DNA from: Comamonadaceae bacterium OS-1
Lineage (GTDB): Bacteria > Pseudomonadota > Gammaproteobacteria > Burkholderiales > Burkholderiaceae_C
Reading direction: 5' to 3'
Length of the DNA: 64,000 nucleotides
Assembly: GCA_027923965.1 (NCBI GenBank)
Contig: AP026969.1
Span: forward strand, 3,534,001-3,598,000
In this document: positions 32,961-45,625 of the stretch, in pieces
How the letters are laid out: the number at the start of each line of letters is the position of its first letter
How positions within the stretch are numbered: position 1 is the first letter of the stretch
Made by a program: the position numbers and the translations under genes
The notes under the pieces: model-generated
The model's database searches: none
What the model saw: only the letters and a program-made list of their open reading frames with translations
What the model was told of the DNA's origin: nothing

Positions 32961-33066
32961 GAGGTGTATCTTTTTGTTTACAACTCATTCTATCGGCATG
33001 GTGCCTACAGAGAAGGGGCTACAGCGGGGGGGCCGAGGAATGCAAAGACTGCCCCATCGCCATTTT

Positions 33067-33110
33067 GTTACTACATTGATAGCTGCCCACGCTTATCCAA
33101 TCAGCGCAGG
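33067..33110. repeat. Dispersed two-hairpin repeat, copy 5
   Basis: GTTACTACATTGATAGC then GCTTATCCAATCAGCGC, in the gap between the RTX gene stop and the haem-sensor start, both on the minus strand. A C/T-rich tail beyond it may help terminate the RTX transcript. Confidence 0.75.
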
Positions 33111-33134
33111 CAGCCTTTTTTCTTTAAATTTGTC

Positions 33135-35669
33135 TCAATGCCAGTTAGCCGCCAGCACCGGGGCCAACGCCGAAGTGGTGTCGCTGGACAAGCTTGTCTG
33201 CCCCGCCGCCGGGGGCGCAAACGCGGCCATGGCCTGCACCAGGTTTTGCACCTGGCTGTCAAGCAATGTCTGGCCGTAGCTGGTTTTGAACTGCTCTACG
33301 TGGTGCGCGCTGCCCAGGTACCAATCGGTGATGCTGAACTTGTCGTTGGTGCCGATGATGCTCACCTCCAGGTCATTGCCCGACTGGCTGAACCACAGCT
33401 GATTGGCGATCACGCCCACGCCGAACTCGACCACGTCGGTGTTGCCTGCGGTAGCATCGTTTTCCACAATAGTGTCGGCGCCAAAGCCACGGTCCAGCCG
33501 GTAGGTGTCGTTGCCTGCGCCGCCCGCCAGGGTGTTGTTGGCGCTGTTGCCCACCACCAGGTTGTCCAGCGCATTGCCGGTGGCATTAACGGCAGCATCC
33601 CCGATGAGCACCAGCTCTTCGAGGTTGTCACCCAGGGTGTAGTCAATGCTGGAGAACACGGTGTCGTGGCCTTCGCCCGCCAGTTCGGTCACCACATCGG
33701 CCGCGTTGTCCACGTAGTACACGTCGTTGCCGGTGCCGCCCACCAGGGTGTCGGCACCGCCCGCGCCATTGAGCCAGTCGTTACCGGCTCCGCCGGTGAG
33801 GGTGTTGGCGGCGCGGTTGCCGTCGAGGCGGTTGTCCAGCGCATTGCCGGTGGCATCGGTGGCGGCATCGCCCACCAGAACCAGCTTTTCCAGGTTGTCG
33901 CCCAGGGTGTAACTGACGCTGGAGACCACTTTGTCATTGCCTTCGTTCGCCAGCTCCGTCACCACATCGCCGCTGTTGTCTACAAAGTAAAGGTCGTCGC
34001 CCACACCGCCCAGCATCGCGTCGGCTCCGGCGGCTCCGTCGAGCCAGTCGTCTCCGGCATCGCCGGTCAGGGTGTTGGCGGCGCTGTTGCCCAGCAGGTT
34101 GTTGTCCAGGGTATTGCCCGTGCCGTCGATGGCGGTGTCGCCGATGAGCACCAGCTTTTCTACGTTGTCGGTCAGGGAGTAGCTGATGCTGGCGAACACG
34201 GTGTCGCTGCCATCGCCTGCTTGTTCAATCACCACAGCGCCGCTGTCGTCAACGTAATAGGCATCGATGCCCGAGCCGCCGTACAGGAAGTCGCCTCCCC
34301 CGCCCCCGTTGATCCAGTCGTTACCAGCACCTGCATAAAGGGCGTTGGCACCGCTGCCGCCGTCGATGTGGTTGTCCAGGTCGTTACCGGTGCCATAGAC
34401 AGCATTTCCGGCCAGCACCAGATTCTCTACGTTGTCGCCCAAGGCGTAATCCCCCCATGAGAACACCGTGTCGATGCCTTCGCCGGCCAGCTCGGTGATG
34501 ACGGTCATCGTGCTGGCTAGGATGTAGTAGTCGTCACCGGTACCTCCCACCAGGGTGTCTTTATCACCCCACCCCGATGAACCATCGAGCGTGTCGTTAC
34601 CGGCACCGCCTATGAGGGTGTTGTCCCCGTAGTTGTCAACCAGTACGTTGTCCAACGCATTGCCTGTGCCGTCGATAGCGTCATATCCCTCCAGTGTCAA
34701 ATTCTCCAGGGTGTCACCCAAGGTGTAGCTGGTGTATGAAGCCACTGTGTCAGTACCTTCACCCGCCAGTTCGACCACTACATCGCCGAGGGCAACTCTG
34801 TAGTAGTCGTCGCCCGCCCCGCCCACCATGGTGTTGTTGCCCTCGCCTCCACCGAGGGTGTCGTCACCCGATCCACCGTACAGTGCATCGTCGCCATCTC
34901 CGCCCCACAGGTTGTCGTTACCAACGCCGCCCAGCATGGTGTCGTTGCCCATACCGCCATCCAGTACGTCATTACCCGCTCCACCATCAAGCACATCGTC
35001 ACCCGCCATGCCGTAGACGTAATCGTTGCCACCCAAGGCGTTGACCACGTCGTTACCCGCAGTTCCCGATATAACGTCCGGGCCTTCGGTGGCAACATTG
35101 AGTTTGGCGAGCACGGTGTCGACGGACCACACCGTGCCGTCGGCGAACTGCACCTGCTGCAAGGGGCTGTAGGTCGAATACACCCGGGGGTCGCCGTAAT
35201 AGTATTGGTCGTAGAAATTCGCCACCGTAAATTGGTCGGTGCCGCCTGCGATAGAGAACACGATATTTCCACCATCACCGTTCACCACCACATCCGAGGC
35301 CAGCACACCCGCCTTGAACACCAAGGTGTTGACCTGACCCGCTTCCGGGATGTAGTCGGTCTCGAGAAAGTCTTGCCCATCGCCTCGGCCAAACAGATAG
35401 GTGTTGTTGCCGCCGTCGCCACGCAGCAAGTCGTTGCCCGCGCCACCGTCCAGCGTGTCGTTGCCCGCACCGCCCAGCAAGGTATCGTCGCCGTCACCGC
35501 CAAACAACTGGTCATCACCCGTGTCCCCACCGAGCACATCGTTGCCCGCCAGGCCATAGACGCTGTCGTTGCCGCCCAAGGCGTAGACCAGGTCGTCGCC
35601 CGAGGTACCGGCCAATAGGTCGTCGCCCTCCGTGGCGTTGAGATTGGTGTTTGCTGGTACGTCGGCCAT
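33135..35669 (-). CDS. RTX-type calcium-binding repeat protein, probable type I secretion substrate
   Basis: An 844-residue acidic protein made almost entirely of RTX nonapeptide blocks (GGxGxDxxx, for example LLGGAGNDT and LDGGAGNDL). It has no N-terminal signal peptide, as expected for type I secretion, and a C-terminal region without repeats (from about residue 740, including DKFSITDWYLG) that should carry the secretion signal. Residues about 340-705 consist of units of 90 residues (270 bp in DNA). No enzymatic domain was recognised, so adhesin, S-layer-like or biofilm roles are possible. It has AAAGGA ahead of its ATG. The hlyB-hlyD pair at 40045-43718 is the obvious exporter. Confidence 0.88.
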   Translation of the reverse strand: MADVPANTNLNATEGDDLLAGTSGDDLVYALGGNDSVYGLAGNDVLGGDTGDDQLFGGDGDDTLLGGAGNDTLDGGAGNDLLRGDGGNNTYLFGRGDGQDFLETDYIPEAGQVNTLVFKAGVLASDVVVNGDGGNIVFSIAGGTDQFTVANFYDQYYYGDPRVYSTYSPLQQVQFADGTVWSVDTVLAKLNVATEGPDVISGTAGNDVVNALGGNDYVYGMAGDDVLDGGAGNDVLDGGMGNDTMLGGVGNDNLWGGDGDDALYGGSGDDTLGGGEGNNTMVGGAGDDYYRVALGDVVVELAGEGTDTVASYTSYTLGDTLENLTLEGYDAIDGTGNALDNVLVDNYGDNTLIGGAGNDTLDGSSGWGDKDTLVGGTGDDYYILASTMTVITELAGEGIDTVFSWGDYALGDNVENLVLAGNAVYGTGNDLDNHIDGGSGANALYAGAGNDWINGGGGGDFLYGGSGIDAYYVDDSGAVVIEQAGDGSDTVFASISYSLTDNVEKLVLIGDTAIDGTGNTLDNNLLGNSAANTLTGDAGDDWLDGAAGADAMLGGVGDDLYFVDNSGDVVTELANEGNDKVVSSVSYTLGDNLEKLVLVGDAATDATGNALDNRLDGNRAANTLTGGAGNDWLNGAGGADTLVGGTGNDVYYVDNAADVVTELAGEGHDTVFSSIDYTLGDNLEELVLIGDAAVNATGNALDNLVVGNSANNTLAGGAGNDTYRLDRGFGADTIVENDATAGNTDVVEFGVGVIANQLWFSQSGNDLEVSIIGTNDKFSITDWYLGSAHHVEQFKTSYGQTLLDSQVQNLVQAMAAFAPPAAGQTSLSSDTTSALAPVLAANWH
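33561..34656 (-). repeat. Tandem 270-bp repeat array inside the RTX gene
   Basis: The anchor GTTGTCCAG(C/G) recurs at 33561, 33831, 34101 and 34371, exactly 270 bp apart, with a diverged unit at 34647 (276 bp). Each unit encodes about 90 residues, containing an RTX block, a YxVDN...VVTELAxEGxD segment and a YTLGDNLExLVLxG segment. Copies differ in many positions, so the array is not a recent duplication, but unit number could vary between strains. Confidence 0.85.
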
Positions 35670-35888
35670 ATTTTTCCTTTGGTGCGAGCTGTTTTTGGGA
35701 TGACCGACCAGTTATAGCGTGCGGCAGATGGATGGCACCGGCTGAACCAGGCCAAAGGCTCTCTCTTTGTAAGCAAGTTACCAAAGTCGCGGCAGGCTCC
35801 ACCCCGAGAAGCCAACCCAGAACGGCCATCGGCACCGGCGTTTCTGTTTCATTTGTTGCACTTACACACCAGGAGTAAGGTGTGCTGG

Positions 35889-37096
<1,208 letters not shown>

Positions 37097-37130
37097 CTAT
37101 CGAGGTGTCCGGGGGAATTAGACCAGCACA

Positions 37131-37679
37131 CAGCGCGAGAGTTATCTGCTCGAACTGGCCCGGTATGTGGTGTTGAACCCGGTACGCGCCGGCATGTGCG
37201 CCATGCCAGAGCTTTGGCCGTGGAGCAGTTACCACGCCACCATCGGAACAGCCGTTGCTCCAGAATGGCTGCACACCGCATGGCTGCTATCGCAGTTCAG
37301 TACCAGTGGTCTGGCCCATGCCCGGGCGACCTACGCCAACCATGTGCGCGCCGGTATCGGACTGCCCACCGTGTGGGAGAGTTTGACCAGCCAGTTCTAT
37401 CTGGGCGATGAAGACTTTGCCCAGCAACTGCAAACGCTGGCACCCCGCAAAGCCGCAGAGCGCGAAATTCCGCGTACCCAACGCCGCGTCAACGCTCCAC
37501 CCCTGGCCCATTTCACCGCCCAAGCAGAACGCAACAGCGCCATGGCGCAGGCCTACGCCACCGGTTGCTACAGCCTCAAAGAGATCGCCACCGCCTTTGG
37601 CGTGCACTACGCCACCGTCAGCCGGGCCGTGCGCGGCGCGGAGTTGGCGCGGGGTGGGGGTGGGAACCTTGGTGCTTAG
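37131..37679 (+). pseudogene. 5'-truncated RAYT (REP-associated tyrosine transposase) remnant
   Basis: From the first base after the IS right end, the frame reads QRESYLLELARYVVLNPVRA and then PWSSYHATIG, the characteristic C-terminal half of RAYT/IS200-like Y1 transposases, ending at 37679. The N-terminal half with the HUH motif and catalytic tyrosine is missing, and it is not found on the other side of the insertion sequence, so the IS insertion was accompanied by loss of that part. The remaining C-terminal region includes a helix-turn-helix-like segment (SLKEIATAFGVHYATVSRAVR). A GTG at 37167 could start a short product, but it would be catalytically dead. Confidence 0.82.
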
Positions 37680-37770
37680 TGAAGCGCATTGGGGCTTGGC
37701 ATTCCCAATCCCCTTGTTGGGCCACACGGCACTAAAGTTTGCGGTAAAAGAAAACTAGAAGCTTTTTAGG

Positions 37771-37817
37771 CCTCTGGCGCTTACGCAATGGGCGCAAGAA
37801 GCTACGTTTTAGATAGC
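37771..37817. repeat. Dispersed two-hairpin repeat, copy 6
   Basis: CCTCTGGCGCTTACGCAATG with GGCGC, followed by GCTACGTTTTAGATAGC. It lies in the 275-bp gap between the RAYT remnant and the lipoprotein gene. The rest of that gap is AT-rich, with no other gene recognised. Confidence 0.75.
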
Positions 37818-37954
37818 AATCATGACTCCGTAGCTAAAGGGAAATGAACGTTGGTGGTAGCCGAATGTGCTATTGCAAGACCTGACCCCGCCGTCCGACC
37901 CGATAGCTGTCATATTAATTTTCTAGGTTGGGTAATTGTTAATACTAAAATTCT

Positions 37955-38518
37955 CTAAGGTAGAATTTTTACTTCTGGATATATTTTTAATATTTGACTA
38001 CTGCAAAAAATCCCGTAAACTTTATCATCGGATTTACCCGTTATTTTTGCCAATTCACGAGGATCACCATGAAGCATGCACGGGTTAGGATTCAATTTTT
38101 CTCTTGCAATAACATAGATACTCAACTGCGAACCCTTTACTACAAATCGCACAATGTGATCTTCTACATCGCGGGGTAGCCGTTGACGTAAATCCACTGT
38201 ATCCTGATAGATCTCCCCTGTGCTTCGTATTTGCCACTTGACGTAAAGAGAGTCGCCAACAATCATGGGACCAGAAACAGAAGTGTTTTGAAATGAGCGT
38301 CCAGTTGTTTTAAAAACCCAATCGGGCGTACGTAGACCTGGTAGTTTTGAATCTCCATATTTAAAATCAAGAATTTCAATTTCCGGACTATCCCAAACCG
38401 CATCAAATTGAAAACTATGATCAACAACTCTCGGCCCACCGCTGGCACAAGCAGTCAAAAAAGTAGCCATCGCGCCTATATATATCCAACGGTGTATTTT
38501 TAATTTAAATGCATTCAT
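37955..38518 (-). CDS. Predicted lipoprotein, unknown function
   Basis: A 187-residue protein with a lipoprotein signal: basic start (MNAFKLKIHRW), a hydrophobic stretch, then the lipobox LTAC with the modified cysteine at residue 24. The mature part is of mixed alpha/beta character with no family I recognise. Its DNA is clearly AT-richer than its neighbours, pointing to acquisition or relaxed composition. It lies 21 bp downstream of the prolyl hydroxylase gene on the same strand and is probably the last gene of the hlyB operon. A role in assembly or retention of the secreted RTX protein is possible but only inferred. Confidence 0.65.
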   Translation of the reverse strand: MNAFKLKIHRWIYIGAMATFLTACASGGPRVVDHSFQFDAVWDSPEIEILDFKYGDSKLPGLRTPDWVFKTTGRSFQNTSVSGPMIVGDSLYVKWQIRSTGEIYQDTVDLRQRLPRDVEDHIVRFVVKGSQLSIYVIAREKLNPNPCMLHGDPRELAKITGKSDDKVYGIFCSSQILKIYPEVKILP

Positions 38519-38539
38519 TTTTTACTCATTAATAATTGC

Positions 38540-39538
38540 TTAAACAGCCATCTGCCGCATCCACTTGGTCATAATCCATTTCTCCCCCCGGGTCACCGGG
38601 CTGCCTCCGTGCAGCGTCATGCGGTCCAACTCGTTTTTGGAATTGGTGTAGGAGAAATACAGCGCGTTGCCCTGCACTGCCTTGATCTTCAAGTTGAGCT
38701 TGGGAAAGAAGGTCTCGCCTCCTTCCTCCACCGTGTTCAAATAGACAATCAGCGTGGCCACCCGCTGGCCGCCACGGCGCAAGGCGACCTGGCTGCTGGG
38801 CTGCTCGGGCGGAAAGAAGTCAAAGTGCGGCACGTATTCACCGCCAGTGCCGTAGTTCAGTATTTGCAGGCCTTCGCCCCGGTCTTCGGGCCAGTCGGCC
38901 AGATCTGCCAGACGCTGCTCCAGCTGGGCCACCAAAGTGGTTTCGCCGCGTTTTAAAAATGTGCCTTGACTGCGACGCTGTGCCGTAACCACCAACTCGG
39001 CAGTGGCGTTGTCACGGGTTTGCGACGGAGCCATGTGGGGCCGGCCCATGGCGATGATGGCCGCGCATTCGTCTGGCGACAGCACGTTGCCAAACAACAC
39101 GATGCGGGGCCGATCTATAGTCATTAGCACAGGCACGCTGCGCCCACCGGCTTGCACACTGGGGCCTGGCGGAAAGTTCAGTGGCTCGTAGGTGTAGCCC
39201 TGGGTCTCGCTCTGGCTTTGTAGGTGGGCGCTGCGCTTAGCCCAGGCGGCGCGGATGTCGCGGGTGGCGGCATCTACCAGAGTGCGTTCAAACACGCCTT
39301 GGTCAACATTGGCCGCCAGCCAGTGCTGCCAATCACCTTGCAGTGTGCTGGGCTGCGGGAGTCTGTCAGGTGGGATCTGTTCCGTCTTGCCACCCAAACT
39401 GGCGATGTAGGCCCGCACGGCATCGGCGTCAAAGTTGGCTTGGGTCATGACCTCCAGCAACCGGGCTTCGGGCACTTTGCGCGCCAAGTTGTCGTGCAGC
39501 CACTGCTGCCAGTCAAGGGAAATAGTGGTGCTCGCCAT
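38540..39538 (-). CDS. 2OG-Fe(II) oxygenase, prolyl 4-hydroxylase-like
   Basis: A 332-residue protein with a C-terminal prolyl-4-hydroxylase-type double-stranded beta-helix domain (residues about 145-330). The iron ligands are His238 and Asp240 in VPHFDFF and His310 in LHGGSPV; Lys320 in GEKWIMTKW should bind 2-oxoglutarate. The N-terminal 110 residues are not recognisable; repeated WQQWLHDNLARKVPEARL and WQHWLAANVDQGVFE segments suggest a small duplicated helical module. It sits downstream of hlyB-hlyD and a LuxR-like gene on one strand, so a modified protein or peptide substrate, possibly the exported protein, is a reasonable hypothesis. Confidence 0.88.
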   Translation of the reverse strand: MASTTISLDWQQWLHDNLARKVPEARLLEVMTQANFDADAVRAYIASLGGKTEQIPPDRLPQPSTLQGDWQHWLAANVDQGVFERTLVDAATRDIRAAWAKRSAHLQSQSETQGYTYEPLNFPPGPSVQAGGRSVPVLMTIDRPRIVLFGNVLSPDECAAIIAMGRPHMAPSQTRDNATAELVVTAQRRSQGTFLKRGETTLVAQLEQRLADLADWPEDRGEGLQILNYGTGGEYVPHFDFFPPEQPSSQVALRRGGQRVATLIVYLNTVEEGGETFFPKLNLKIKAVQGNALYFSYTNSKNELDRMTLHGGSPVTRGEKWIMTKWMRQMAV

Positions 39539-39610
39539 ACGGTGTTTGTCGTTTCGCTTTGTGCGCCTATTGTTGGCAGGTTAAAGCCTGCGGGCAATGG
39601 TACAGATGTA

Positions 39611-40039
39611 CTACTTCACTACTTTGTTTTTGATAGCATCATTCACATATTCAGTAAGCGGTAATGGCTTTTTTATAGCAATAAAATACGGTAAAAAAAA
39701 TGTGTGTTTTTGTAATGAATCGGCGCTATGGCAGGCATGGTTCATCCCCCCTTCGGCGGGCACAGAGGTGAATACCTGCCCGAGCGGTAGAGCGGATACT
39801 CTGGGCACAAAAACGATGTCAGCCATGTGCCAGTACTGGTCGCGCAGCCAATTCGCAGCCTGGGTACGGTTGCTAACGCCGATCTTTCGAAACAGCGCGT
39901 GGAGCTGGTTACGCACGGTTTGCTCGCTTTTGCCCGCATCCAGCGCAATACGTTTGTTGCTGGCACCCTGGTGCAGTGCTTGCAGCAGGCGGTGCTCAAT
40001 GGCAGTAAGCGCCATTTGATGGTGTGTCGTGGTTTGCAT
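39611..40039 (-). CDS. LuxR-type HTH regulator in the T1SS operon
   Basis: A 142-residue protein whose first 66 residues form a LuxR/FixJ-type helix-turn-helix (LLQALHQGASNKRIALDAGK, TVRNQLHALFRKIGVSNRTQ). No receiver or ligand-binding domain is present. It starts five bases after the hlyD stop, so it is translated from the same mRNA. The last 17 or so codons overlap a degenerate copy of the dispersed repeat (39632-39661), which seems to supply the C-terminus. Probable autoregulator of the secretion operon. Confidence 0.78.
   Translation of the reverse strand: MQTTTHHQMALTAIEHRLLQALHQGASNKRIALDAGKSEQTVRNQLHALFRKIGVSNRTQAANWLRDQYWHMADIVFVPRVSALPLGQVFTSVPAEGGMNHACHSADSLQKHTFFLPYFIAIKKPLPLTEYVNDAIKNKVVK
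39632..39661. repeat. Degenerate dispersed repeat, possible copy 10
   Basis: GATAGC followed by ATTCACATATTCAGTAAGCG resembles one arm and the degraded second stem of the dispersed repeat. It lies within the 3' end of the LuxR-like gene. The similarity is weaker than in the other copies. Confidence 0.4.
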
Positions 40040-40044
40040 GGTTC

Positions 40045-41517
40045 CTACCGCTCCCGCAAACTCTCACTCCCCGCCCGCTGCACCGGACTCAGCAAATACT
40101 CAATAATCCTTCGCCTCCCCGTCTTAATCTCCGCCGTCACATTCATCCCCGGGCTCAAGTGCACCCGCTTACCGTCCACCAGCATGCTGGTCTGCTGCAG
40201 CGTGATGGTGGCCGGGTAGTAGCTGCCTTTCTTCTCATCCGTCACCGCATCCGCCGTGACCACGTCCACGGTGGCGGTGACCGTGCCGTACTTGGTGTAC
40301 GGAAACGTCTCCAGCTTCACCTCCGCCGTCTGCCCTGCGTTGACGAAGCCGATGTCCTGGTTGGCGATGCTGACCTCTGCCGTGACGGTGGCGCTGTCGG
40401 GCACCACCACCATCAGGGCCTGGGCTTCGGTGACCACGCCGCCCACCGAGTGGATGGCCAGCTGCTGCACCACGCCGTCCACCGGGGCGGTGAGCTGGGT
40501 CAGGCGTTCTCGGTGGCTGGCTTTGGCGTGGTCGGCGTTGAGCTGCTGCAGGCGGCTGCTAGCCTGGGCGTGGCGGTCGCTCAGGGTGCGCACGGTCTCA
40601 AACCGGTAGGCGGCCTTGGCCTGCTCGGTTTCGGCCAGGGTGGACTGGGCTTCGGCCAGGCGCGCGCGCTGGGTGGCCAGGTCGCGCTCTTGCTCCACGC
40701 GTTCGCGGGTTTTGTCCTGCGTGGCGTGGTTGGAGATGAAGCCCTGGCCCACCAGGGCCTTGAAGTCGGCCTCTCGCGTTTGGGCCATGGGCACGGTGGC
40801 TTCCAGCTTGGCGATGCTGGCCTGCACGGTGGCGGCTTCGGCCTGGTGGCGACGCGATTCGGCGTCGAACTTGGCCAGCTTGGCGCGGATGTCTTGCCAT
40901 TCGCTTTGCAGCTGGGCTTGGGTGGCTGCGCGCTCGGCGGCGCTGGTGTCCAGACTTTGTGCCCAATCAGCCTCTAGCGCCGATGCAACGGGCGCAAGCA
41001 GCTCTTTATTCGATAGCATTTGCAACAGCGCCTGGGTACGCACCAGCTCCGATGCCTGGGCCTGGCGATGGGCCTGGATGCTGGTGGTGTCGGCGTTGGC
41101 GCTGGTGGGGTCCAGCTCGACCAGCACCTGGCCGGCCTGCACCCTGTCACCGTCTTTGACGCGCACGGCGCGCACCACGCTGGGCTCCAGCGGCTGGATG
41201 AGCTTGGTGCGGTCGCTGACCATGATGCGGCCCGGGGCCACGGCCACGATGTCTACCTGGCCTACGCAGGCCCACACCAGGGCGATCGCAAGCAGCGCCA
41301 CCAGCCCCCAGGCCAGGCGGCGCGGGGCCGGGTGCACGGGGGTGTCTTGCAGGCTGAGGGCGGCGGGCAAAAAGGCCAGTTCGTCGGCCAGCCGGGCCGG
41401 GCCCGCCAGTTCGGCGCGGTGGGCCCAGGCGGCACCGAAGATGGCGCGGTATTTGGCCAGCAGGTCCAGCGTGGGGTGGCGGGCAGTAGCGGCGTGGGTT
41501 GAGGTCGCTTCGCTCAT
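40045..41517 (-). CDS. hlyD: Type I secretion membrane fusion protein (HlyD family)
   Basis: A 490-residue periplasmic adaptor. A cytoplasmic N-terminus leads to one membrane segment (RLAWGLVALLAIALVWACVG, about residues 70-90), then a lipoyl-type half (GDRVQAGQVLVELDP), a long coiled coil, and the second lipoyl/beta-barrel half (LTAPVDGVVQQLAIHSVGG). The start ATG overlaps the hlyB stop (ATGA); an upstream in-frame start would only add basic residues inside hlyB. Within the coiled-coil region a complete copy of the dispersed repeat (40971-41017) is read in frame as MLSNKELLAPVASALEA. A TolC partner is not in the window. Confidence 0.92.
   Translation of the reverse strand: MSEATSTHAATARHPTLDLLAKYRAIFGAAWAHRAELAGPARLADELAFLPAALSLQDTPVHPAPRRLAWGLVALLAIALVWACVGQVDIVAVAPGRIMVSDRTKLIQPLEPSVVRAVRVKDGDRVQAGQVLVELDPTSANADTTSIQAHRQAQASELVRTQALLQMLSNKELLAPVASALEADWAQSLDTSAAERAATQAQLQSEWQDIRAKLAKFDAESRRHQAEAATVQASIAKLEATVPMAQTREADFKALVGQGFISNHATQDKTRERVEQERDLATQRARLAEAQSTLAETEQAKAAYRFETVRTLSDRHAQASSRLQQLNADHAKASHRERLTQLTAPVDGVVQQLAIHSVGGVVTEAQALMVVVPDSATVTAEVSIANQDIGFVNAGQTAEVKLETFPYTKYGTVTATVDVVTADAVTDEKKGSYYPATITLQQTSMLVDGKRVHLSPGMNVTAEIKTGRRRIIEYLLSPVQRAGSESLRER
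40971..41017. repeat. Dispersed two-hairpin repeat, copy 7, inside hlyD
   Basis: CCTCTAGCGCCGATGCAACG with GGCGC, then GCTCTTTATTCGATAGC, matches the intergenic copies (closest to copy 6) but lies inside an intact coding frame. On the minus strand it encodes about 16 residues of HlyD with no stop codon. Confidence 0.85.
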
Positions 41518-43718
41518 GCCGCCGCCCCTTCGGTGGGCTGGCCGCCGTCTTGCATGTGCCACAGGTGGGCGTAGATGCCTTGCTGGCGCAGCAGGGTTTC
41601 GTGCGGGCCGGCCTCCACAATCTGGCCCTGGTCCATCACGATGATGCGGTGGGCGTGGCGCACGGCGCTGAGGCGGTGGGCAATGATGAGCACGGTGCGG
41701 CCCTGGGCGATGTGCTGCATGTTTTTCTGGATGACGGCTTCGCTCTCGTAGTCCAGCGCGCTGGTGGCTTCGTCAAAGATCAGGATGCGGGGGTTGGTGA
41801 ACAGGGCACGGGCAATGGCGATGCGTTGGCGCTGGCCGCCGCTCAAACTTCCGCCCTGCTCGCCCACCAGGGTGTCGTAGCCTTCGGGCAGGGCGCTGAT
41901 GAAGTCGTGGGCTCCGGCCAGTTGGGCCACGCGCACCACGGCTTCGATGGGGGCGGCGGGGTCGGTGATGGCGATGTTCTCTCTAACTGAACGGGTAAAC
42001 AGCAGGTTTTCTTGCAGCACCACGCCCACCTGGCGGCGTAGCTGGGCCGCGTCGATCAGGCTGATGTCGGTTCCGTCGACCAGCAAGCGGCCCGCCTCGG
42101 GCACGTACAGGCGCTGCACCAGCTTGGTCAGCGTGCTTTTGCCCGAGCCGCTGCGGCCCACGATGCCGATAACTTCGCCGGGGCGGATATCCAGGCTGAT
42201 GCTGTTGAGCACTGGCGCGGCCTCGGGGCGGTAGCGAAAGGTCACCTGGTCCAGCGTGATACGGCCCTTCACCGGGGGCAACTGGGCGGCGTGGGTGGGG
42301 GGCACTTCGGTGCGGGTGTTGAGGATGTCGCCCAGTCTTGCTACCGAAATCCCCGTTTGCTGGAAGTCGGTCCACAGCTGGGCCATGCGCATGATGGGCT
42401 GGGACACGCGGCCTGCAAACATGTTGAAGGCGACGAACTGGCCTACGGTGAGCTGGTTGTCCATCACCAAGTGTGCGCCGTACCACAGGGTGGCGGCGTT
42501 GACGAGCTTGCCGATGAGGTTGACACCCTCGTGGGCCACGCTGGCCAGGTTCTGGGTCTTGAAGCTGGCGGAGACGTAAGCGGCGAGCTGGCCGTCCCAG
42601 CGCTTGCCGAAGGCCGGCTCCAGCGCGGTGGCTTTGACGGTCTGGATGCCGGTGACGGTTTCCACCAGCATGGCCTGGTTCTCAGCCCCGCGAGCGAACT
42701 TCACGTCTAGGCGCTGGCGCAAGATGGGCACCACGGCCAGGCTCAGGCCAAAGTACAGCGGCAAACTCACCAGCACGATGAGCGTCAGCGGCACGCTGTA
42801 GAACAGCATCACCGCGATGAAGACGATGCTAAAGAACACGTCCAGCAGCACGGTGAGTGCGTTGCCGGTGAGGAAGCTGCGGATGTTCTCCAACTCGCGC
42901 ACCCGGGCCACCGAATCACCCACCCGGCGTGCCTGAAAGTAGGCCAGCGGCAAGGCCACCAGGTGGCGAAACAGGCGCGAGCCCAGCTCGACGTCGATGC
43001 GGCTGGTGGTGTGGCTGAACACGTAGCTACGCAGGGCGTTAAGCACGCTTTCAAACACCACCACCACCACCAGGCCGGTGACCAGCACGTCCAGCGTGGT
43101 CAGGCCTTTGTGCACCAGCACCTTGTCCATCACCACCTGGAAAAACAGCGGGCTGACCAGGCCAAAGAGCTGCAGCGCAAACGAGATCAGCAGCACTTCA
43201 CCCAACAGCTTGCGGTACTTGACCAGGGCCGGGATGAACCACGAGAAGTCGAACTTGGCCAGGGCCCCGGCCAGGCTGGCACGGCTGCTGATGAGGATGA
43301 GCTGGCCGGTCCATTGGCTGGCAAAGGCTTCTACCGACTCGATCACCGGCCGGGGGGTGGTGGGGTCTTGCAGCAGTACACGGGTGCCGTCGCACTGGGC
43401 CAGGATGGACACGCGCAGGCTGCCATCTTCTGTGCGCATCACGGCCAGGGCAGGTAAAGGCGTGAGGGCCAGGCGGTCGGGGCGGCTGCGGCTGAGTTTG
43501 GCCGTGAGCCCCAATTTTTGGGCGGCAAGGAGCAGGTCGTTGGAGGTGATGGGCTGCCCGGAAGACCAGCCCAGTTGGTGCGCCAGCGTGGCCGGGTCGG
43601 CGGCGATTTGGTGGAAGCGGGCTATGGCACACAGGGCGGCCAGGGCTGAAACAGGGGGAGGACTAACACTAGGCACGCTGTTCACTACGTGGCTGTGTGG
43701 CGCTGGCAAAGGATTCAT
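41514..43718 (-). CDS. hlyB: Type I secretion ABC transporter (HlyB family)
   Basis: A 734-residue exporter. Residues about 20-150 form a C39-like domain in which the catalytic cysteine position is not conserved (SALAALCAIARFHQ), so it is a docking (CLD) rather than a peptidase domain, as in HlyB exporters of RTX proteins. A six-helix membrane domain follows (about 165-440), then the ATPase: Walker A GRSGSGKST, signature LSGGQRQRIAIARAL, Walker B ILIFDEATSALD. It heads a minus-strand operon hlyB-hlyD-luxR-like-hydroxylase-lipoprotein. The CLD type agrees with an RTX substrate such as the 33135-35669 protein. Confidence 0.93.
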   Translation of the reverse strand: MNPLPAPHSHVVNSVPSVSPPPVSALAALCAIARFHQIAADPATLAHQLGWSSGQPITSNDLLLAAQKLGLTAKLSRSRPDRLALTPLPALAVMRTEDGSLRVSILAQCDGTRVLLQDPTTPRPVIESVEAFASQWTGQLILISSRASLAGALAKFDFSWFIPALVKYRKLLGEVLLISFALQLFGLVSPLFFQVVMDKVLVHKGLTTLDVLVTGLVVVVVFESVLNALRSYVFSHTTSRIDVELGSRLFRHLVALPLAYFQARRVGDSVARVRELENIRSFLTGNALTVLLDVFFSIVFIAVMLFYSVPLTLIVLVSLPLYFGLSLAVVPILRQRLDVKFARGAENQAMLVETVTGIQTVKATALEPAFGKRWDGQLAAYVSASFKTQNLASVAHEGVNLIGKLVNAATLWYGAHLVMDNQLTVGQFVAFNMFAGRVSQPIMRMAQLWTDFQQTGISVARLGDILNTRTEVPPTHAAQLPPVKGRITLDQVTFRYRPEAAPVLNSISLDIRPGEVIGIVGRSGSGKSTLTKLVQRLYVPEAGRLLVDGTDISLIDAAQLRRQVGVVLQENLLFTRSVRENIAITDPAAPIEAVVRVAQLAGAHDFISALPEGYDTLVGEQGGSLSGGQRQRIAIARALFTNPRILIFDEATSALDYESEAVIQKNMQHIAQGRTVLIIAHRLSAVRHAHRIIVMDQGQIVEAGPHETLLRQQGIYAHLWHMQDGGQPTEGAAA

Positions 43719-43885
43719 CCTTGGGTCGATATTTTTTTATTTTGCATACAATAATTTGTAAAAAGTTTACTGTGCGAAACATCAATAAGTAGTTTTAACT
43801 TCAGGTAAATTTCGTAAGTATTTGATACTGCAAAACCGTCAAACCCGCCTGCTACCATCGTTTCCAAACCCCAGGAGACACCCCC

Positions 43886-45625
43886 ATGGCAGCAGTTGGC
43901 CACTTCACCACCGCCGATGGCCGCTCGGCATTCCGCGTCTTTGCGCCGCAAAAAACCAGCCTCAGCGTGCTGCTGGTCGAGCCCCCCGGCCGCATCCCCC
44001 TGACCGCCGATGCAGTGGGCTACTGGCATGGCAGCACCGAGCGCCTGCCGCCCGGCACCCTGTACTGGCTGGAGGTGGACGGCCAGCGCTTTCCCGACCC
44101 GGCATCGCACTACCAGCCGCAGGGCGTGCACGGCCCATCGATGGTGGTGGATGCCACGCCCGCCTATAGCCCGGGCTGGACGGGTGTGAAGATGGAAGAT
44201 GCCATCCTTTACGAGCTGCACCTAGGCACTTTCACCCCCGAGGGCACGCTGGCTGCGGCGCAGCACAAGCTGCCCTACCTGCGCGACCTCGGCATTACCG
44301 CCATCGAGTTGCTGCCGCTGGCGGCTTTTCCGGGCGAGCGCAACTGGGGTTACGACGGCGTGTGCCTGTTTGCCCTGCACGCTGCGTACGGCAGCTATGC
44401 AGATTTGAAAGCCTTTATCGAAACCGCCCACCAGCACGGCATGGCCGTCATCCTGGACGTGGTCTATAACCATTTTGGCCCCGAGGGCAACTACACCGGG
44501 GCGTTTGCGCCCTACACCAAGAGCGCGGCCACGCCCTGGGGTGCGGCTATCAATTTCGACGGCGAATACAACCACGGCGTGCGCGAGTTCTTTCTGGAAA
44601 ACACCCGCTACTGGCTGGAAGACATCGGCTTTGACGGCTTCCGCATGGACGCGGTGTCGCTGATTTTTGACGTGATGCCGGTGCACATCCTGCGCGAATG
44701 CACAGCCCTGGCCCGCCGCATCGGCCAAGCCCAGGGCCGCGAGGTGCTGATGATTGCCGAGCACCTGCGCAACAACCGCTTTGTGACTTCCGAGCAGGGC
44801 TTTGGCTACCACGCCCAGTGGAACGACGACCTGAACCATGCCGTGTTTGCCAAGCTGACTGGTGAAACCGGCCGCCACTACGCCAACTTCGGCAGCTTTG
44901 CCGACGTGGCCAAGGCCCTGCGCGATGGCTTTGTGCTGGACGGCACGCGCTTTGACCAGATCTACAAATACTTTCTGGGCACCGACGCGGCCAGTACCCA
45001 GGGCTGCGAGCACGTGGTGCACATCCAGGACCACGACCAGGTGGGTAACCGCCTGTTGGGCGACCGCATGCTGGCCACCCATGGCCGGGCCAAGGCGCTG
45101 CTAGGGATCACCGCGGTACTGGCCAGCCCGTTTGTGCCCATGCTGTTCATGGGCGAAGAGTACGGCGAGACGGCCCCGTTCCTGTTCTTTGAAGATTTCA
45201 GCGACCAGCCGCTGATCGACGGTGTGCGCGCGGGCCGCAAGGCGGACTTTGCTTTTGACGGTGCGGATGGTGTGGAGCCGCCCGACCCGCATGCGCGCAG
45301 CACGTTCGAAGCCTCCAAGCTGCAATGGCATTTGCTGGACGCGCCGTACAACCAGGCCATCCTGGCCCTGTACCGCCAGCTCATCGCCCTCAAACGCAGC
45401 GGCCAGCTCGGGCCCCGCCAGCGCGACCAGGTGCAGGTCGTGGCCGACCCCGCCACCGAGGTGATCACCCTGGCTACCCCGCACACGCTCACGGTGCTCA
45501 ACTTCTCGGCCAGCCCCCAAAAGTACGCGCTGCCCGCCGGTTGGCGGCCGCTGCTGGGCACGGCAGAGGCGCGTGCCGACGGTCTGCTGGCCCCGTTTGC
45601 GGCCTGGGTGCTGCAGCGCGGCTAA
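43886..45625 (+). CDS. treZ: Malto-oligosyltrehalose trehalohydrolase
   Basis: A 579-residue GH13 enzyme that cleaves trehalose from maltooligosyltrehalose. The N-terminal carbohydrate-binding E-set domain (residues 1-95) is followed by the barrel. Catalytic motifs are DVVYNHFGPEGNY, the nucleophile in GFDGFRMDAV, the acid in LMIAEHL, and HDQVGNR. GEEYGETAPFLFFEDF is typical of TreZ. The ATG has AGGAG upstream. No treY, treS or glgX lies nearby in the window, so either treY is elsewhere or the gene is separated from its usual partners. It diverges from hlyB across 167 AT-rich bases. Confidence 0.9.
   Translation: MAAVGHFTTADGRSAFRVFAPQKTSLSVLLVEPPGRIPLTADAVGYWHGSTERLPPGTLYWLEVDGQRFPDPASHYQPQGVHGPSMVVDATPAYSPGWTGVKMEDAILYELHLGTFTPEGTLAAAQHKLPYLRDLGITAIELLPLAAFPGERNWGYDGVCLFALHAAYGSYADLKAFIETAHQHGMAVILDVVYNHFGPEGNYTGAFAPYTKSAATPWGAAINFDGEYNHGVREFFLENTRYWLEDIGFDGFRMDAVSLIFDVMPVHILRECTALARRIGQAQGREVLMIAEHLRNNRFVTSEQGFGYHAQWNDDLNHAVFAKLTGETGRHYANFGSFADVAKALRDGFVLDGTRFDQIYKYFLGTDAASTQGCEHVVHIQDHDQVGNRLLGDRMLATHGRAKALLGITAVLASPFVPMLFMGEEYGETAPFLFFEDFSDQPLIDGVRAGRKADFAFDGADGVEPPDPHARSTFEASKLQWHLLDAPYNQAILALYRQLIALKRSGQLGPRQRDQVQVVADPATEVITLATPHTLTVLNFSASPQKYALPAGWRPLLGTAEARADGLLAPFAAWVLQRG

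Follow-up and report, generated by a model that had tools for sequence, protein, structure and literature searches.

The exporter genes and the prolyl-4-hydroxylase-type oxygenase gene that lie together in the window (i.e., the whole 64,000-nucleotide stretch of the Comamonadaceae bacterium OS-1 genome analyzed here) are likely to represent an ordinary HlyB-HlyD-RTX type I secretion locus into which an accessory block of mixed origin was inserted. The cluster is real but, on comparative evidence, is not a conserved system. A sequence-only reading had described five genes on one strand, and ORF calls found all five there, head to tail on the minus strand at 43718-37955: hlyB, hlyD, a LuxR-type helix-turn-helix (HTH) ORF, a prolyl-4-hydroxylase-type 2OG oxygenase, and a lipoprotein (Table 1). 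The overlaps or gaps of 5–72 bp reported in that reading also agree with the sequence, with 5 bp between hlyD and the HTH ORF, 72 bp between the HTH ORF and the oxygenase, and 21 bp between the oxygenase and the lipoprotein. The listed start of hlyD (GTG 41562) would make it overlap hlyB by 49 bp, against 4 bp from an in-frame ATG at 41517, the latter being the likelier start. Across 35600-43900, promoter-like sites (5 vs 2.4 expected by chance, sd 1.6) and terminator-like sites (9 vs 10.1, sd 3.3) were both near the chance number, and no RNA family exceeded its gathering cut-off in 33000-44200. The five genes from hlyB to the lipoprotein may be carried on one common transcript.

Table 1. Features of the secretion locus and the adjoining block, in window coordinates
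Feature	Coordinates	Strand	Evidence
hlyB, type I secretion ABC exporter, 734 aa	41514..43718	-	TIGR01846; PF00664, PF00005, PF03412
hlyD, periplasmic adaptor; likelier start ATG 41517	40045..41562	-	TIGR01843; sequence
142-aa ORF, LuxR/GerE helix-turn-helix in residues 10-64, likely regulator remnant	39611..40039	-	PF00196
Prolyl-4-hydroxylase-type Fe(II)/2OG oxygenase, 332 aa	38540..39538	-	PF13640; conserved residues; PDB matches
Lipoprotein, unnamed family, 187 aa	37955..38518	-	C24 invariant; GC 39.5%
Truncated gene, end at IS	37131..37690	+	Weak helix-turn-helix matches
IS3-type insertion sequence, 1250 bp, without target duplication	35881..37130	-	8 genome copies; PF00665, PF01527
RTX repeat protein, 844 aa, intact, probable exporter cargo	33135..35669	-	16 PF00353 (HemolysinCabind) stretches

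Both exporter components scored well above their NCBIfam cut-offs (HlyB, 1010.7 vs 725.55 bits for TIGR01846; HlyD, 381.4 vs 208.65 bits for TIGR01843), and each of the 11 PF00353 matches listed genome-wide falls in the RTX gene, the sole PF00353 place found in the genome. With an exporter, an adaptor, and an RTX substrate encoded nearby, the locus belongs to the HlyB/HlyD-RTX type I secretion systems, in which hlyB, hlyD, and the RTX gene likewise stand in line on one strand; it differs from them in carrying the HTH ORF, the oxygenase, and the lipoprotein between hlyD and the RTX gene, an arrangement not seen in 41 other loci. The RTX gene had been placed beyond "IS and RAYT debris" in the same direction as the exporter genes, and both the gene and the IS are indeed present, but the RAYT assignment could not be confirmed, as the fragment in the truncated gene (37167-37679) gave helix-turn-helix matches below Pfam cut-offs alone and no NCBIfam match. 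A literature search on hydroxylases with type I secretion or HlyB/HlyD, whose coverage left out most subscription journals, found no described system of such composition, in keeping with the sequence-only reading.

The locus was compared within the genus (8 genomes, own included). The best HlyB match there is at 93% identity, in genome G039; the match in G399 is an 80% piece at a contig end, uninformative on downstream genes, and those in the remaining genomes are at ~39%. Gene order is collinear between G039 and the window on either side (an amylase-like gene, hlyB, hlyD, ~780 bp, and the RTX gene), and no match to the HTH ORF, the oxygenase, or the lipoprotein was found in its hlyD-RTX gap. 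Homology between the two sequences stops within the last hlyD codons (40052) and restarts in the RTX leader (35870), 11 bp past the IS end. The suggestion that the RTX gene was originally the gene behind hlyD is thus probable, given that in G039 it follows hlyD at ~780 bp with the block absent. The RTX products of the window and G039 are 67% identical and share the same ATG start, and the window gene is intact; an N-terminal truncation, raised by a longer mechanical ORF in G039, was rejected on the ATG GCC GAC start and leader common to both.

The reverse history, in which the block is ancestral to the exporter locus and was lost in relatives, leaving the window with the old arrangement, shortened by the IS, appears quite unlikely to us. 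The G039 gap (L124:5774-6552) consists of degenerate sequence and a second RTX-leader copy, which looks like the trace of a further, decayed RTX gene, and the G039 locus is therefore not pristine either, which lends this history some weight. It would nevertheless need a loss in all 41 other loci examined, and it meets both a G039 gap lacking any match to the three block genes and a base composition that is unlike among the parts. GC3 is 85% in hlyB, 86% in hlyD, 77% in the RTX gene, 74% in the oxygenase, and 28.9% in the lipoprotein, and we take the block between hlyD and the RTX gene to be of mixed origin. Its HTH ORF exceeds the PF00196/GerE cut-off (39.7 vs 23.5 bits) in residues 10-64 only, its second half is without relatives, and its 3 foreign relatives are all short, each covering 35–43% of the ORF. 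In the curated matches, the motif sits at the C-terminus of regulators, CsgD and NarL among them. HTH-only proteins exist; a remnant of a regulator is the likelier identity.

At the downstream edge of the block, the IS3-type element offers a second line of evidence. It is present in 8 copies in the genome, matching at 100%, and 3-bp direct repeats (ATG, GCT, GGC, ATA, GGT, GTC, and CAG) border each of the seven copies that lie elsewhere in the genome, whereas the window copy has CTG on one side and CCT on the other, with no target duplication, and therefore marks a rearrangement junction. The simplest reading is that an IS-mediated deletion or recombination joined the accessory block to the RTX leader. 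In the course of events that we propose, the ordinary HlyB-HlyD-RTX locus seen by comparison would be the starting point, and a block with the HTH ORF, the oxygenase, the low-GC lipoprotein, and the truncated gene would have been placed between hlyD and the RTX gene, bounded upstream by the hlyD end and downstream by the IS; the break points are observed, and the order of events we infer.

The sequence-only reading had suggested that the oxygenase acts as part of the exporter system, and co-occurrence was examined from both sides. At E<=1e-180, 75 of 399 family genomes, counting the own, gave an HlyB match, and the surveyed loci were G039 and the next 40 in rank, i.e., the best 41 of 84 foreign matches listed; 33 of these loci extend 8 kb or more downstream and 8 fall short of this. 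Sequence of hlyD was present in all 41 (in a few as just a contig-end piece) and an RTX-like ORF (three or more GGxGxD) lay downstream in 28, while the oxygenase profile matched in none (0/41). What separates hlyD from the RTX gene differs among these loci, and the small ORFs scanned there gave no Pfam family over cut-off. From the other side, 79 loci were kept of 112 oxygenase relatives (species genomes; flanks of up to 10 kb per side, shorter where a contig ended), none above 50% identity to the window oxygenase and all outside its own clade (P0006-P0028), and among them hlyD, whole HlyB, and RTX-like ORFs were each absent (0/79). HlyB matches in 24 of the 79 were limited to the ATPase domain at 27–33% identity, and the HTH ORF was matched in one (L090). 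The oxygenase thus did not recur with HlyB/HlyD in either direction. Within the loci covered, such occurrence of oxygenase relatives without this exporter is what the sequence-only reading had itself named as evidence against its proposal.

A different enzyme was encountered at these loci. A glycosyltransferase is encoded on the hlyB strand in 14 of the 40 family HlyB loci (L170, L173, L175, L176, L177, L179, L182, L184, L186, L187, L188, L193, L196, and L197), starting 1.4–2.1 kb behind hlyB, directly behind hlyD, in 11 and ~10.6–11.2 kb behind it in 3; Pfam families (PF12000 and others) were tested in L173, and the L175 match is a 32-residue piece. None of the 79 oxygenase-relative loci carries it, a weak control as these are mostly from other taxa. 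The exported RTX protein may be the substrate of this glycosyltransferase. Small ORFs whose starts resemble one another and look like those of membrane proteins also lie behind hlyD or the glycosyltransferase (L166:8194-8718, L182:9925-10422, and L184:9625-10125); they matched no Pfam family over cut-off and are possible immunity or assembly proteins.

The oxygenase itself exceeds the PF13640 cut-off (58.6 vs 27 bits), and its H238, D240, H310, and K320 are conserved across 24 aligned sequences, which places it among prolyl-4-hydroxylase-type 2OG oxygenases (PF13640 with HxD...H and Lys); we take HxD...H to be the Fe ligands and the lysine to be the 2OG-binding residue. Because the reading frame and the catalytic residues are intact, the gene is probably under selection. 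In PDB searches, the catalytic half was matched by the prolyl 4-hydroxylase entries 5hv0 (profile E 4e-67) and 3itq, both presumably from Bacillus anthracis; the alignment with 5hv0 spans this half throughout, with HxD...H...K kept in the window enzyme. What sets the latter apart from 5hv0 is an extra N-terminal region of ~120 residues that the PDB match does not cover; two similar N-terminal WxxWL segments were read by eye. The B. anthracis prolyl 4-hydroxylase is described as hydroxylating (PPG)n peptides (PMC8968730), and other bacterial protein hydroxylases target EF-Tu and ribosomal protein L16 (PMC4543633). The EF-Tu hydroxylase Pseudomonas PPHD from the same source resembles the window enzyme as a bacterial protein prolyl hydroxylase in general, a likeness drawn from its description.

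In the 399 family genomes, the oxygenase (P0001) was matched in 308 at E<=1e-10, with a best score of 228 bits outside its own genome against 757 bits for itself, and these matches represent a widespread paralogue family; one paralogue is in the same genome, at 3054937. The window protein instead clusters, apart from that paralogue (SH-aLRT 99 in a quick tree), with the distinct subfamily P0006-P0028 (48–70% identical), a rare and mostly metagenomic clade whose named members are from Rhodoferax saidenbachensis and a Noviherbaspirillum assembly. In a 399-genome order sample, a profile of this subfamily scored 570 bits against the own genome, the highest score elsewhere being 319, and at E<=1e-95 it found nothing beyond the own genome in 369 relative genomes. 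Across these three overlapping samples (399 family, 399 order, and 369 relative genomes), the subfamily-level oxygenase is therefore confined to the own genome. Carriage of the oxygenase or the block by plasmids or viruses was considered and rejected: the oxygenase matched 17 plasmid records, all below 60% identity, and 2 viral contigs at 28–31%, the block DNA matched 1 plasmid record, and the lipoprotein family had no match in plasmids (query P0128) or viral contigs (query A2).

A cytoplasmic hydroxylation of the RTX protein, or of some other exported protein, by the oxygenase ahead of export, with the lipoprotein assisting at the envelope, seems very doubtful to us. Co-occurrence is absent both ways (0/41 and 0/79 loci), G039 has the same exporter and an RTX orthologue without this oxygenase, and the RTX protein is proline-poor, with 8 prolines in 844 residues and one PP pair (its G039 orthologue, from a genome without the oxygenase, also has 8, in 861 aa). 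The proline count may leave room for hydroxylation of other residues, e.g., Asp or Asn of the RTX repeats. We keep this proposal under consideration because the spacing with hlyBD is tight, same-strand, and operon-like, the oxygenase is intact in its catalytic residues, and the glycosyltransferase in 14 of 40 related loci provides an enzyme-gene precedent, so that an enzyme slot is not alien to such loci. Its lineage-restricted form seems equally improbable: a prolyl-hydroxylase-type enzyme with N-terminal docking segments would have joined a type I secretion operon in the own lineage and P0006-P0028, where it would modify an exported protein by hydroxylation and fill the position that a glycosyltransferase has in related exporter loci. 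Action of the enzyme on an exported protein would, if real, amount to a type of modification new to type I secretion; the evidence points the opposite way.

Taken together, the inserted block is favored by the collinear G039 locus without it (break points 40052 and 35870), and further by the IS lacking a duplication, the counts of 0/41 and 0/79, a subfamily seen only in the own genome, the spread of GC3, and the proline-poor RTX protein. Against it stand the operon-like gaps of 5, 72, and 21 bp, the intact oxygenase, and the glycosyltransferase in 14 of 40 related loci, as well as the scope of the surveys, which comprised the best 41 of 84 HlyB matches (8 with less than 8 kb downstream) and 79 relatives from outside P0006-P0028. 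Under the inserted-block reading, the block probably borrows the hlyBD transcript, as the spacing suggests, and the oxygenase is probably an active, cytoplasmic Fe(II)/2OG protein hydroxylase whose substrate is not tied to export, while HlyB-HlyD would export the RTX protein without it, judging from the gene content of relatives. The locus serves as a worked case in which an apparent new functional operon resolves into a standard exporter locus plus an inserted block, exposed by a genome of the same genus and by an IS copy that lacks its target duplication.

The last gene of the block encodes a protein with a lipobox-like cysteine, C24, that is invariant among 34 aligned family proteins; it has 177 relatives at E<=1e-3, matches in 4 genomes of the 399-genome order sample (own included), and no convincing Pfam or NCBIfam match among the 34 members scanned, nor a match to a named immunity family. 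An explanation compatible with the inserted block is that this lipoprotein is what remains of an effector-immunity pair, an orphan immunity protein left behind when the IS-mediated deletion removed its effector gene. We consider this unlikely, with some evidence in its favor: in L138:8425-10089 a relative precedes a same-strand Tle1-like (PF09994) hydrolase gene by 27 bp, resembling in this the T6SS lipase immunity lipoproteins (Tli), in L140 a lipoprotein fragment lies ~320 bp behind an HlyB-like gene, and lipoprotein immunity is known for the phospholipase Tle3 (PMC9860674). However, the window lipoprotein differs from Tli in having neither an adjoining effector gene anywhere in the block nor a named family, and the Tle1-like neighbor occurs in one of three foreign loci, the L139 relative adjoining an M20 peptidase. 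RTX debris suspected behind the L140 fragment was dropped, since the C-terminal motif on which it rested was found in L140 alone among 49 stretches searched. Behind the lipoprotein gene, positions 37753-37882 match several other places in the genome at 74–88% identity over 48–130 bp and constitute an intergenic repeat.
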